From positions 62,001 to 126,000 of the forward strand of contig NZ_FWXD01000001.1 of NCBI RefSeq assembly GCF_900176275.1: a stretch of DNA of 64,000 bases, read 5' to 3'. The stretch is from Andreprevotia lacus DSM 23236. Lineage in GTDB: Bacteria > Pseudomonadota > Gammaproteobacteria > Burkholderiales > Chitinibacteraceae. Within the stretch, counting starts at the first letter, position 1, and each line of letters starts with the position of its first letter. Position numbers and translations under genes: made by a program. The notes under the pieces are model-generated. The model ran no database searches. It had not been told where the DNA came from and saw only the letters and a program-made list of their open reading frames with translations. Shown here in pieces: positions 10,706-12,950 of this stretch.

Positions 10706-11590
10706 TTACGCGTCCCGGCTTTTTTCTTGCCCCACGCGGTCCCGCGCGAACTGCCATGCCACCCGACCATTGCGTGCGCCACGGCCTTGCGCCCATTGCA
10801 ATGCCTCGCGCTCGGCTGCGTTGTCCCATGCGCTGCCGCCCAGTGTCGTGCACCAGTGGCGGCAGGCAGTCAGATATTCGTCCTGGCTGAAGCCATAGAA
10901 AGATAGCCACAGGCCAAAGCGCTCGGACAGCGCGATCTTTTCTTCGGTGGCTTCGCCTGGGTGGATTTCGCCATCGACATAGCGTGTCTGACGGTTTTCG
11001 TCGTGGTATTCCGGCAGCAGGTGACGGCGATTGGACGTCGCGTAGATCAGCACATTGGCGCTGGGGGCGGCAATCGAGCCATCCAGTGCCGTCTTCAGTG
11101 CCTGATAGCCCCAGTCGCCTTCCTCAAAGCTCAGGTCGTCGCAGAAAATCAGGTACTGTTCGGGCCGGTCGGCTACCAGTGCCACGATATCGGGCAGGTC
11201 GACCAGATGGGTTTTTTCCACCTCGATCAGCCGCAGCCCCTGGTCGCGGAATTCGTTCCAGACTGCTTTGACCAGCGAACTCTTGCCGCAGCCGCGCGCG
11301 CCGGTCAGCAGCACATTGTTGGCGAGCTGGCCGCGCACGAACTGGCGGGTATTGGCCAGCAGACGGTCTTTTTGCAAATCGACATTCTGCAAATCACTCA
11401 ACTGCACACGATGCGGGTGCGCCACCGGCTGCAGATAGCCGTGATCGTGCGGCTTGCGCCAGCGGTAGGCGACAGCCTGCCAGTCCTGTGCCGGCGGCGT
11501 AGGCGGCAAGGAGGACTCCAGCTTGGCCAGCAGGGTATCGGTGCGGTCTATCAGTTGCTGGAAGTACACAGCGAGCGGGTGTTGATCCAT
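10706..11590 (-). CDS. DUF815-family AAA+ ATPase
   Basis: A 294-residue ATPase of the DUF815 family. Residues about 90-105 hold a P-loop, LTGARGCGKSSLVKAVWNEF, followed by a Walker B-like FCDDLSFEEGD and a sensor region ATSNRRHLLPEY. The C-terminus has a helical lid. Members are conserved but poorly characterised cytoplasmic ATPases. The ATG at 11590 lacks an obvious ribosome site, but no better start is seen. A GC-rich hairpin lies downstream of its stop at 10634-10659. Upstream of it, 11591-11957 (367 bp) contains no protein gene, only the promoter and leader of the next small gene. Confidence 0.85.
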   Translation of the reverse strand: MDQHPLAVYFQQLIDRTDTLLAKLESSLPPTPPAQDWQAVAYRWRKPHDHGYLQPVAHPHRVQLSDLQNVDLQKDRLLANTRQFVRGQLANNVLLTGARGCGKSSLVKAVWNEFRDQGLRLIEVEKTHLVDLPDIVALVADRPEQYLIFCDDLSFEEGDWGYQALKTALDGSIAAPSANVLIYATSNRRHLLPEYHDENRQTRYVDGEIHPGEATEEKIALSERFGLWLSFYGFSQDEYLTACRHWCTTLGGSAWDNAAEREALQWAQGRGARNGRVAWQFARDRVGQEKSRDA

Positions 11591-11733
11591 GATGTTGACG
11601 GCAGAATGGCGGATGGAAGACGGGGTTCAGGGTAACGCCAGAGCGCGCCGCCTGTCGTGCTGCTTTTGCCTGATTTGCGTCGGTGTTTTCCCTAAGTGGC
11701 TGTTTTTTATTGAAATAATTCCTTTGTTTCAAT

Positions 11734-11763
11734 TTGACGGCATTGCGGGGGCGGTGCTAGAGT
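11734..11763 (+). promoter_or_regulatory. Sigma-70-type promoter of the 47-codon gene
   Basis: TTGACG (11734-11739) and TAGAGT (11758-11763) are 18 bp apart, with a TG two bases before the -10 box (extended -10). The region just upstream, about 11700-11733, is AT-rich. Transcription would begin near 11770, leaving a leader of about 190 nt before the ATG at 11958. Confidence 0.6.
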
Positions 11764-11769
11764 GATTTT

Positions 11770-11957
11770 GCCGTCATTGCAATTGTGCCGTGGCGGACGT
11801 TCGGTTGTGCAAACAGGCCGGCATGCCCCTAAGGTGTGTCGCGCGGCCGGAGACGACACTCCGGCAACGAGTCGCCCGATCCTGATGCAGGTGGGGGTGA
11901 CACCTGTCAGCAAAATCTGCGACGTAGATAGTGAAACCTTCGCCAAAGGAGATCGCC
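11770..11957 (+). promoter_or_regulatory. Structured 5' leader of the small gene
   Basis: The leader contains a perfect 7-bp hairpin, GCCGGAG (11846-11852), loop ACGACA, CTCCGGC (11859-11865), and a second 6-bp hairpin, CAGGTG (11888-11893), loop GGGGTGA, CACCTG (11901-11906). Neither is followed by a T-run, so they are not terminators. I do not recognise a known riboswitch class. The length and two ordered hairpins suggest post-transcriptional control. Confidence 0.45.
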
Positions 11958-12101
11958 ATGCGATTCGACTTCATGGAAGGCTTAGCGAGTACGGTCAACG
12001 ATGCGTTGATGAACTTGTTCCGGGCCTTCAAACCCTCTACCCAACTCGACCACGATGATTCGAGGAATCTTGCCCTCGAGATCGCGGAACCGTACCGGTA
12101 G
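11958..12101 (+). CDS. 47-residue small protein
   Basis: The reading frame runs ATG to TAG and encodes MRFDFMEGLASTVNDALMNL then a basic, polar tail ending AEPYR. The ATG follows AAAGGAGATCGCC, the strongest ribosome site in this part of the window. The first 24 residues could form an amphipathic helix (FDFMEGLASTVNDALMNLFR); the rest is acidic then polar, with no signal peptide. It has its own promoter, long leader and intrinsic terminator, so it looks like a real, independently expressed gene. I recognise no family. Confidence 0.7.
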   Translation: MRFDFMEGLASTVNDALMNLFRAFKPSTQLDHDDSRNLALEIAEPYR

Positions 12102-12133
12102 CTACTCTGGCCAGGTAAAACCTGATTCCCGTT

Positions 12134-12170
12134 AAAGGGCGAGGGGGCGATATGCCCCTTCGCCCTTTTT
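12134..12170 (+). terminator. Intrinsic terminator of the small gene
   Basis: GGGCG (12137-12141) pairs with CGCCC (12161-12165) and GGGG (12143-12146) pairs with CCCC (12155-12158), flanked by AAA and a run of five Ts at 12166-12170. A classic strong terminator. Confidence 0.88.
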
Positions 12171-12194
12171 GCATATGATGGGCAGATCATCACC

Positions 12195-12950
12195 TTGCGA
12201 TCCGTGACCTGCGTGCATACCGTATTCCGTCTGTTACCGCTGTTCGTGCTGGCCTTGCCGCTGCTTTGCCAGGCGGCGGGCCCCACCATGTTCGACGTGA
12301 TCTTTGCCCGTCGCCCGCCGCTGTATTACGCCGAGGAAGGCGCCGACGGCGCGGTGCAGACCCGTGGGGTGGTCTACGAACGGGTGCGCGCGGCGTTTGC
12401 TGCGGCGGCCATTCCGGTGCGTTTTGTCGAACAGCCGACCAAACGGGTGGTGGCCTCGGTGCGGGACGACTCGCAGCCATTGTGTGCGATGGGCTGGTTC
12501 AAAACACCGGAGCGCGAGGGTTTTGCCAGGTTCTCTGCCCCCATTTACCAGGACAAGCCCTGGGTAGTGGTCACGCGCAAGGCCATGCATCCGCGCCTGC
12601 AGACCTACAAGACGCTGGCTGCGCTGCTGCGTGACGGCCATCTGGTGCCCTCCATCCTCGATGGCATCTCGCACGGCAACTATATCGATGGCCTGCTGGC
12701 CAAAGCGCGCATCGAGCGCGCCACCATCGATCCGATCCAGAACCTGCGCAAGATCGAGGCCAGTCACGGCGACTACACCATCTTGCCGTCGGATGTCTTC
12801 GATTTCTATCGTGCGCAGAACCCGGCCACAACCCTGGTGGCGCTGGTCTATCGCGATGTGGAGCCGGGTGAAAAGCTCTACCTGATGTGCAGCAAGAGCA
12901 CGCCGGATACCCTGATCGAGCAATTCAATATCGCGTTGCGCATGCAGTAG
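12195..12950 (+). CDS. Exported solute-binding-like protein
   Basis: A protein of about 251 residues with a signal peptide (VFRLLPLFVLALPLLCQAAG) and a fold resembling family 3 periplasmic binding proteins: VVYERVRAAFAAAAIPVRFV, ARFSAPIYQDKPWVVVTRKA and a C-terminal half with PSDVFDFYRAQNP. In Neisseriales, stand-alone proteins of this type are common and need not belong to ABC transporters; no permease is nearby. The first possible start is TTG at 12195; GTG at 12204 or 12213 are equally plausible because the ribosome site is weak. The ligand is unknown. Confidence 0.75.
   Translation: MRSVTCVHTVFRLLPLFVLALPLLCQAAGPTMFDVIFARRPPLYYAEEGADGAVQTRGVVYERVRAAFAAAAIPVRFVEQPTKRVVASVRDDSQPLCAMGWFKTPEREGFARFSAPIYQDKPWVVVTRKAMHPRLQTYKTLAALLRDGHLVPSILDGISHGNYIDGLLAKARIERATIDPIQNLRKIEASHGDYTILPSDVFDFYRAQNPATTLVALVYRDVEPGEKLYLMCSKSTPDTLIEQFNIALRMQ

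Follow-up and report, generated by a model that had tools for sequence, protein, structure and literature searches.

A covarying leader RNA with riboswitch-like anatomy accompanies a free-standing 47-codon gene in Chitinibacteraceae

The window analyzed here is a 64,000-nucleotide stretch of DNA from Andreprevotia lacus, a bacterium whose relatives include known degraders of chitin. Positions 11734 to 12170 hold a well-supported stand-alone transcription unit made up of a promoter, a structured leader, one small-protein gene and a terminator. In alignments of related genomes several predicted leader helices covary, the leader and the open reading frame (ORF) occur together, and the promoter and terminator are conserved. 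The best reading, to which we give an even chance, is that the leader is a riboswitch-like orphan RNA that regulates in cis and serves a single small gene. The leader RNA matches no catalogued family among those searched. A preliminary description of the same DNA had proposed a self-contained gene with a structured leader, and this proposal is supported by conservation at the protein level, by covariation in the leader and by the lack of need for any neighbor. The transcription unit is bounded by these features:

11734 to 11763, + strand: promoter with -35 TTGACG, an 18-nt spacer and extended -10 TGCTAGAGT (pattern scan; conservation across loci)
11958 to 12101, + strand: 47-codon ORF MRFDFMEGLASTVNDALMNLFRAFKPSTQLDHDDSRNLALEIAEPYR, ATG at 11958 and stop codon at 12099-12101 (ORF list; conservation)
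about 12134 to 12170, + strand: intrinsic terminator, a stem followed by a T run (scan; stem pairs covary among relatives)

The promoter and terminator are credible because they are conserved across relatives; the scans on their own were unconvincing, with one promoter found versus 0.4 expected and two terminators found versus 0.8 expected. An extended -10 element had been noted in the preliminary description, and the pattern TGnTAnAnT recurs in 16 of 17 loci with L013 as the exception. The -35 element of the 17 loci reads TTGAC in 11 and TTGCC in two, and is poor in four. The terminator noted at the same time was confirmed as a stem with a T run whose pairs vary jointly across relatives. The consensus promoter scan detected no promoter-like site on the - strand within 11590-12210. 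The position of the promoter predicts a transcription start near 11770, and the promoter and ORF positions together would make the leader a 5′ UTR.

The ORF runs from ATG 11958 to the stop at 12101 and encodes the predicted 47-residue protein. Comparison of codons points to selection at the protein level. The proteins of 11 aligned relatives are 74-96% identical to the window protein, the C-terminal codons vary synonymously while the residues are kept, and conservation extends to the C-terminal half and the place of the stop codon. The conserved protein ends are F-x-EGL-x-STVND and EP[FY]R. Three further loci, L028, L029 and L043, keep the F-x-EGL-x-STVND start and an EPFR end around a different middle. 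The window protein has no Pfam, NCBIfam or PHROGs family at E 10 and no matching PDB sequence at E 10, and 12 members of set A5 have no Pfam or PADLOC family at E 1; an NCBIfam MreC match to a single A5 member (E 0.17) was taken as chance. As for a type I toxin, which would be a short hydrophobic transmembrane peptide, the AlphaFold2 model has two helices (mean pLDDT 68, pTM 0.34) and the hydrophobic-moment sum gives a moderate amphipathic moment. The window protein has a net charge of -3, compared to -3 in L017, -2 in L028 and +4 in L043. The earlier suggestion of a membrane-active peptide has the low-confidence helix model and the moderate moment in its favor and is tentative; the protein may work as a short amphipathic helix whose ends are conserved.

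Searching 61 genomes with the protein gave matches in 17. A profile search across the family recovered the full-length ORF from 17 of 43 Chitinibacteraceae genomes (E 6e-28 or better), along with two partial relatives (E 3.9e-6 and 5.2e-6); the remaining matches, at E 0.087 to 0.94, were treated as noise. The 12 named loci come from Andreprevotia (2), Chitinilyticum (2), Chitinolyticbacter (1), Chitiniphilus (2), Chitinibacter (2), Amantichitinum (1) and two MAGs, one of them labeled Formivibrio. Of 399 genomes sampled evenly across the order, 10 match, nine within the family and one, G232, in another family. Two of the five genomes of that other family match at E 0.05, G232 clearly (8.7e-20) and the other partially (0.04). 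The single match among 369 genomes of a class-wide sample is the window's own genome.

The leader has a length of ~188 nt, in agreement with the ~190 nt given in the preliminary description, and folds at -83.3 kcal/mol compared to a mean of -67.9 for dinucleotide shuffles (z -3.2, below 200/200 shuffles). Sixteen leaders were folded singly (L011 was left out, since the bases before its ATG are an insertion), and a common core plan was judged by eye in which P1, P1b and P2 lead to a four-way junction from which the hairpins PA, PB and PC branch, with P0 on the 5′ side. This predicted junction was missed in the preliminary description. The leader features are:

11771 to 11796, + strand: P0, 5′ leader hairpin (fold; double-sided changes in 8 of 10 pairs among 16 sequences)
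11797 to 11927, + strand: leader core, the subject of covariance model R1 (individual folds, covariation, model search)
11797-11800 with 11922-11925, + strand: stem P1, which never varies
11803-11806 with 11914-11917 and 11808-11810 with 11910-11912, + strand: P1b
11813-11817 with 11903-11907, + strand: P2, which closes the four-way junction (covariation alignment)
11819 to 11841, + strand: PA, junction hairpin of variable sequence (individual folds; alignment)
11846 to 11865, + strand: PB, junction hairpin with the invariant loop ACGACA (covariation alignment)
11871 to 11901, + strand: PC, junction hairpin (double-sided changes in 7 of 7 outer pairs)

All 17 cores were aligned with MAFFT, and the alignment was not fitted to the structure. 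In this alignment 94.9% of 630 cells are paired, and 42 cells and 11 of 39 pairs have double-sided changes; gap cells of P1b in Amantichitinum (L017), where the 3′ strand of this helix is deleted, were set aside. The core covariation score is 0.220 versus a shuffled mean of 0.113 and is reached by 0/500 shuffles, with the caution that related sequences may exceed such shuffles without any structure. The stricter counts were reached by shuffles in 2/500 cases for double-sided pairs and 7/500 for further pair types. Slid versions of the structure score 0.025-0.055 versus 0.220, a comparison that favors the true register because the structure was written by hand from the same sequences and their consensus. 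Frameshifts in relatives and a leader without covarying pairs had been named as grounds for abandoning the proposed unit; in the relatives the leader covaries and the ORF is conserved.

The covariation is distributed unevenly. In P1b and P2 nine of 12 pairs are invariant and one is double-sided, and the sole double-sided pair of PB is C-G in 9/17, A-U in 7/17 and U-G in 1/17. PA has 74.7% of its cells paired and double-sided changes in 2 of 7 pairs in the 17-core alignment, and its alignment between clades is perhaps wrong. PB is the first of two hairpins picked out in the preliminary description and is upheld. The second, CAGGTG...CACCTG at 11888-11906, was rejected: its 5′ arm falls in a loop that is variable or absent among relatives, 11888-11891 pairs within a different hairpin in the window's own fold, and in the conserved structure 11903-11907 (CCTGT) instead pairs with 11813-11817 (ACAGG). 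In the latter helix four pairs out of five are standard in 17/17 sequences and the fifth in 16/17.

The stems of P0, PA and PC are less conserved than the loop and junction nucleotides, which include ACGACA, GGTTGTG and GACGTAG. This distribution bears on a passive role, in which the folded 5′ UTR shields the small-protein mRNA from decay without sensing anything. The 5′-terminal P0 keeps its pairing in 16 sequences while its sequence changes freely, the promoter is conserved and the Shine-Dalgarno sequence (SD) is near consensus, all of which a stabilizer would explain; however, a stabilizer needs stems and not conserved loop and junction nucleotides, and we regard this role as improbable, although together with a dual-function RNA it is a serious competitor of the riboswitch-like reading.

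R1 matches the 17 ORF-bearing genomes among the 43, once in each, 26-32 nt before the ATG in 16/17 and 281 nt before it in the one with an insertion. The model was built from those 17 genomes, so the informative points are single copy, position and absence elsewhere. R1 had no match in the other 26 family genomes or in the rest of the order sample, and no R1 search placed the leader with any other gene; the filters of these searches were stricter and only a few candidates were scored in each genome, which makes the absence soft.

The preliminary description also claimed a strong ribosome site, and a good SD, AAGGAG, lies at 11946-11951, six bases upstream of the ATG. It is part of a further candidate element:

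11931 to 11956, + strand: candidate SD hairpin, GUGA/UCGC plus CCUUC/AAGG, with the SD in the 3′ arm (pairing in 16 sequences)

In 16 sequences 100% (GUGA/UCGC) and 96.9% (CCUUC/AAGG) of the cells of this hairpin are paired; its loop varies in length and its arms hardly at all. The hairpin is almost invariant and P1 is invariant, so both are beyond covariation testing. The energy of the SD hairpin is ordinary or weak, with z-scores of -0.98 in the window, -0.28 in L012, +1.14 in L028, +0.96 in L029 and -1.23 in L043; CCUUC 5′ of the SD is also found in L028, L029 and L043. When the first 26 codons were included in the fold, the SD had an unpaired probability of 0.04-0.46 and P1 had a mean pair probability of 0.24-0.93 across 16 sequences, lowest in the window (0.24), where the minimum-energy fold lacks P1. 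A mutually exclusive pairing between P1 and an anti-start strand, prompted by the consensus structure, was rejected at probabilities of 0.00-0.16. Control at the RNA level, as put forward in the preliminary description, is plausible; the almost invariant arms of the SD hairpin leave no covariation by which to judge it, and the energy of this hairpin is ordinary. We consider it likely that the leader controls translation of the 47-residue ORF.

In the riboswitch-like reading the leader would regulate, act on translation and bind a ligand. The core, with P1, P1b and P2 closing the PA/PB/PC four-way junction, would be the sensor domain and has riboswitch-like anatomy. The signal that the sensor would couple to translation of the 47-residue ORF might be a small molecule, an ion, a protein or the ORF's own product. 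The likely route would be altered access to the SD/AUG region (11931-11966), directly 3′ of P1. This reading is supported by the single R1 copy per genome, at a similar distance before the ORF in 16/17, by the core plan common to 16 leaders, by covariation of the core and P0 together with the conserved loop and junction nucleotides, by the synonymous variation of the C-terminal codons, and by the usual absence of a downstream gene to attenuate. It is weakened because in the window P1 has a low probability in folds that extend into the ORF, the energy of the SD hairpin is weak and the anti-start pairing is improbable; because the ends of the protein are also kept in loci that lack this leader (L028, L029 and L043); and because L017 has lost the 3′ strand of P1b. 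It is also weakened because the leader was found with no other gene. Most riboswitch classes occur with more than one kind of gene.

The only matches to Rfam 15 in the window at gathering scores are 3 tRNAs. A search of 11600-12250 to E 10 gave three sub-threshold matches and a search of five relative loci to E 1 gave two, none of them within the leader. The leader matches none of the known riboswitch classes of Rfam 15, and shares with riboswitches a covarying conserved structure in a predicted 5′ UTR. A sub-threshold tpke11 match lies over the terminator (12117-12195; 22.5 bits versus a gathering score of 43) and is probably a chance match to a hairpin. Among the open-licence papers listed for Andreprevotia, Chitinibacter, Chitinibacteraceae, structured leaders and small proteins, no title or start of abstract describes the leader RNA or the small gene. 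Orphan riboswitch candidates, as presented in part of a review (PMC7266159), are structured 5′ leaders whose ligand is unknown. Like the candidates in that part of the review (PMC7266159), the leader has a covarying multi-helix junction in the 5′ UTR with conserved unpaired nucleotides, a narrow phylogenetic spread and a gene of unknown function; unlike them, it occurs with one gene only, a free-standing 47-codon ORF, and has no Rfam match. The likeness is one of anatomy, and both the ligand and the expression platform of the leader are hypothetical.

The first half of the ORF appears to be constrained in its nucleotides as well as in its protein, a feature that the preliminary description missed:

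11976 to 12029, + strand: codons 7-24, with nearly frozen nucleotides and, in the window, one long hairpin (codon comparison; folds)

Codons 7-17 are identical across all 17 sequences, including the rare TTA and AGT (17/17), which account for 3/232 Leu codons and 5/109 Ser codons in eight window ORFs. Among conserved degenerate residues the codon is invariant at 13/16 sites in codons 7-24 versus 2/10 in codons 26-47 (Fisher p 0.004, with the codon-7 boundary picked after inspection of the data); with codons 2-24 instead, 13/18 sites are invariant (Fisher p 0.016). The tested stretches were picked after conservation had been seen, and the following P values are descriptive. Over codons 4-15 the window uses the same codon as L028 at 10/11 sites, versus a background of 44% at identical residues in a neighbor gene (P 0.0017), and as L029 at 9/11 versus 42% (P 0.0087); the raw count for L043 is 6/9. 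Four loci with the neighbor gene kept 16/18 to 19/19 codons over codons 4-24 (P 0.00025 to 0.012) and 7/14 to 17/20 over codons 26-47 (P 0.056 to 0.88).

Synonymous recodings of codons 5-26 reached folds as low as the natural one in 1/500 cases for L001, 6/500 for L016 and 23/500 for L017, and in 168/500 for L028 and 76/500 for L043. The fold of the whole ORF is unremarkable (89/500 for L001, 287/500 for L017 and 161/500 for L016). The long hairpin accounts for part of the freeze in the window's clade and not in L028, and was rejected as the sole cause because L028 keeps the nucleotides without a special fold. An inner stem, UCAACG/CGUUGA versus UGAACG/UGUUCA by eye, has one compensatory change in the single lineage of L028 and L029, which is suggestive only. 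Had these two loci received the block by descent without ever carrying the leader, the constraint on the RNA would predate the leader; leader loss in their lineage is an equally possible alternative.

A frozen coding block raises the prospect of a dual-function RNA, in which a trans-acting or scaffold role of the leader, or of the entire ~400-nt transcript, would come on top of coding for the protein. The nearly frozen codons 7-24 with TTA and AGT in every sequence, the persistence of the block in L028 and L029, the unit's own promoter and terminator, the mostly convergent neighbors and the single copy per genome all agree with such a function. However, the frozen stretches were chosen after their conservation was seen and a frozen ORF start also fits translation control in cis or codon-specific pausing; we consider a dual function unlikely, with a chance of perhaps one in four. 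Dual-function RNAs that encode small proteins include VcdRP of Vibrio cholerae and SR1 of Bacillus subtilis, according to parts of two papers (PMC8672173, PMC8501984). As in those accounts, the RNA is short and has a small ORF, and here a separate promoter and terminator make the unit independent; unlike them, it has a conserved long structured leader 5′ of the ORF and no known base-pairing target (PMC8672173, PMC8501984). The opening part of another paper states that some sRNAs code for peptides under selection (PMC5521070). The present unit resembles the sRNAs described there in its small ORF under selection and short independent transcription unit and differs in the large covarying leader domain tied to the ORF in 17/17 genomes (PMC5521070).

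The leader and the frozen block may also belong together. A new structured RNA class for one small gene, with a sensor-like leader and codons 7-24 of the coding region as an RNA element, is a tentative proposal that we consider less likely than not. If it is true, sensing, folding and coding for its own effector peptide would all fall to a single ~400-nt transcript. The frozen rare codons also make it possible to test whether a small coding region has a function as RNA. Structured leaders often precede enzyme or transporter genes, which reveals what they sense. In the present case the partner of the covarying leader is a free-standing 47-codon gene that belongs to no known family, so that ligand and protein function become approachable jointly.

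The genomic setting varies among relatives. Six of the 12 named loci (L018, L019, L021, L027, L028 and L029) have the unit next to a divergent gene that we take to encode an AAA-type ATPase, and the arrangement in L043, read by eye, is alike. L022, L023 and L025 keep the gene that follows the unit in the window, presumably of AraC type, and L026 keeps two genes from further left of the unit. A motif script run on ten loci from 22 genomes found the small gene beside the ATPase gene in other genera solely in L052, which is the L028 locus. Plasmid origin was rejected, since neither the protein (E up to 1) nor the DNA had a plasmid match, as was phage origin, with 11 phage records at E 4 or worse and none covering 80% of the query; 12 pattern stretches in viral contigs included no relative. 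The setting suggests a unit that was inherited vertically and underwent rearrangement, not a mobile one.

A crude ORF caller (ATG starts, at least 120 aa) found the first downstream ORF to be convergent in 9/12 loci, co-directional in two and unclear in one, consistent with the earlier statement that no neighboring gene explains the unit. These orientations largely refute the idea that the ORF is a leader peptide or attenuator of the downstream gene at 12195-12950. In the window that next ORF is co-directional and may start 25 nt past the terminator, and a co-directional ORF lies 316 and 500 nt from the ATG in the two related loci; however, the first downstream ORF is convergent in most loci, and the 47-codon ORF is conserved in its C-terminal half and stop position. 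We consider attenuation extremely improbable. A TATGAT directly after the terminator (12170-12200), seen by eye, is a possible -10 for the downstream ORF with its TTG at 12195.

The relatives form a natural series: genomes with the leader and the gene, genomes with the gene and another leader, and one strain in which a repeat separates the leader from the gene. L028 and L029 represent the second group. In these two relatives (L028:2884-2993 and L029:4842-5000) quite different leaders precede a similar start region (GTGAACCCTTC and CTGAACCCTTC), and these leader folds are not significantly stable (z -1.14 and +0.47). The promoter of both loci is TTGACA-17-TAGAGT, and no comparable promoter scored in L043. 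The separated leader is that of Chitinibacter sp. GC72, where a repeat of ~257 bp (L024:4720-4977) lies between the leader core and the SD. L011 had been a candidate for a leaderless locus, which was rejected when the leader was found upstream of a ~257-bp repeat. The GC72 ORF is intact despite the repeat, which further weakens the riboswitch-like reading, and the insertion offers a natural test of the coupling between leader and gene. The repeat has 26-nt terminal inverted repeats that are 92% complementary and matches 11 places in its own genome and six in G030 (some partial, original included), and looks like a MITE-like element.
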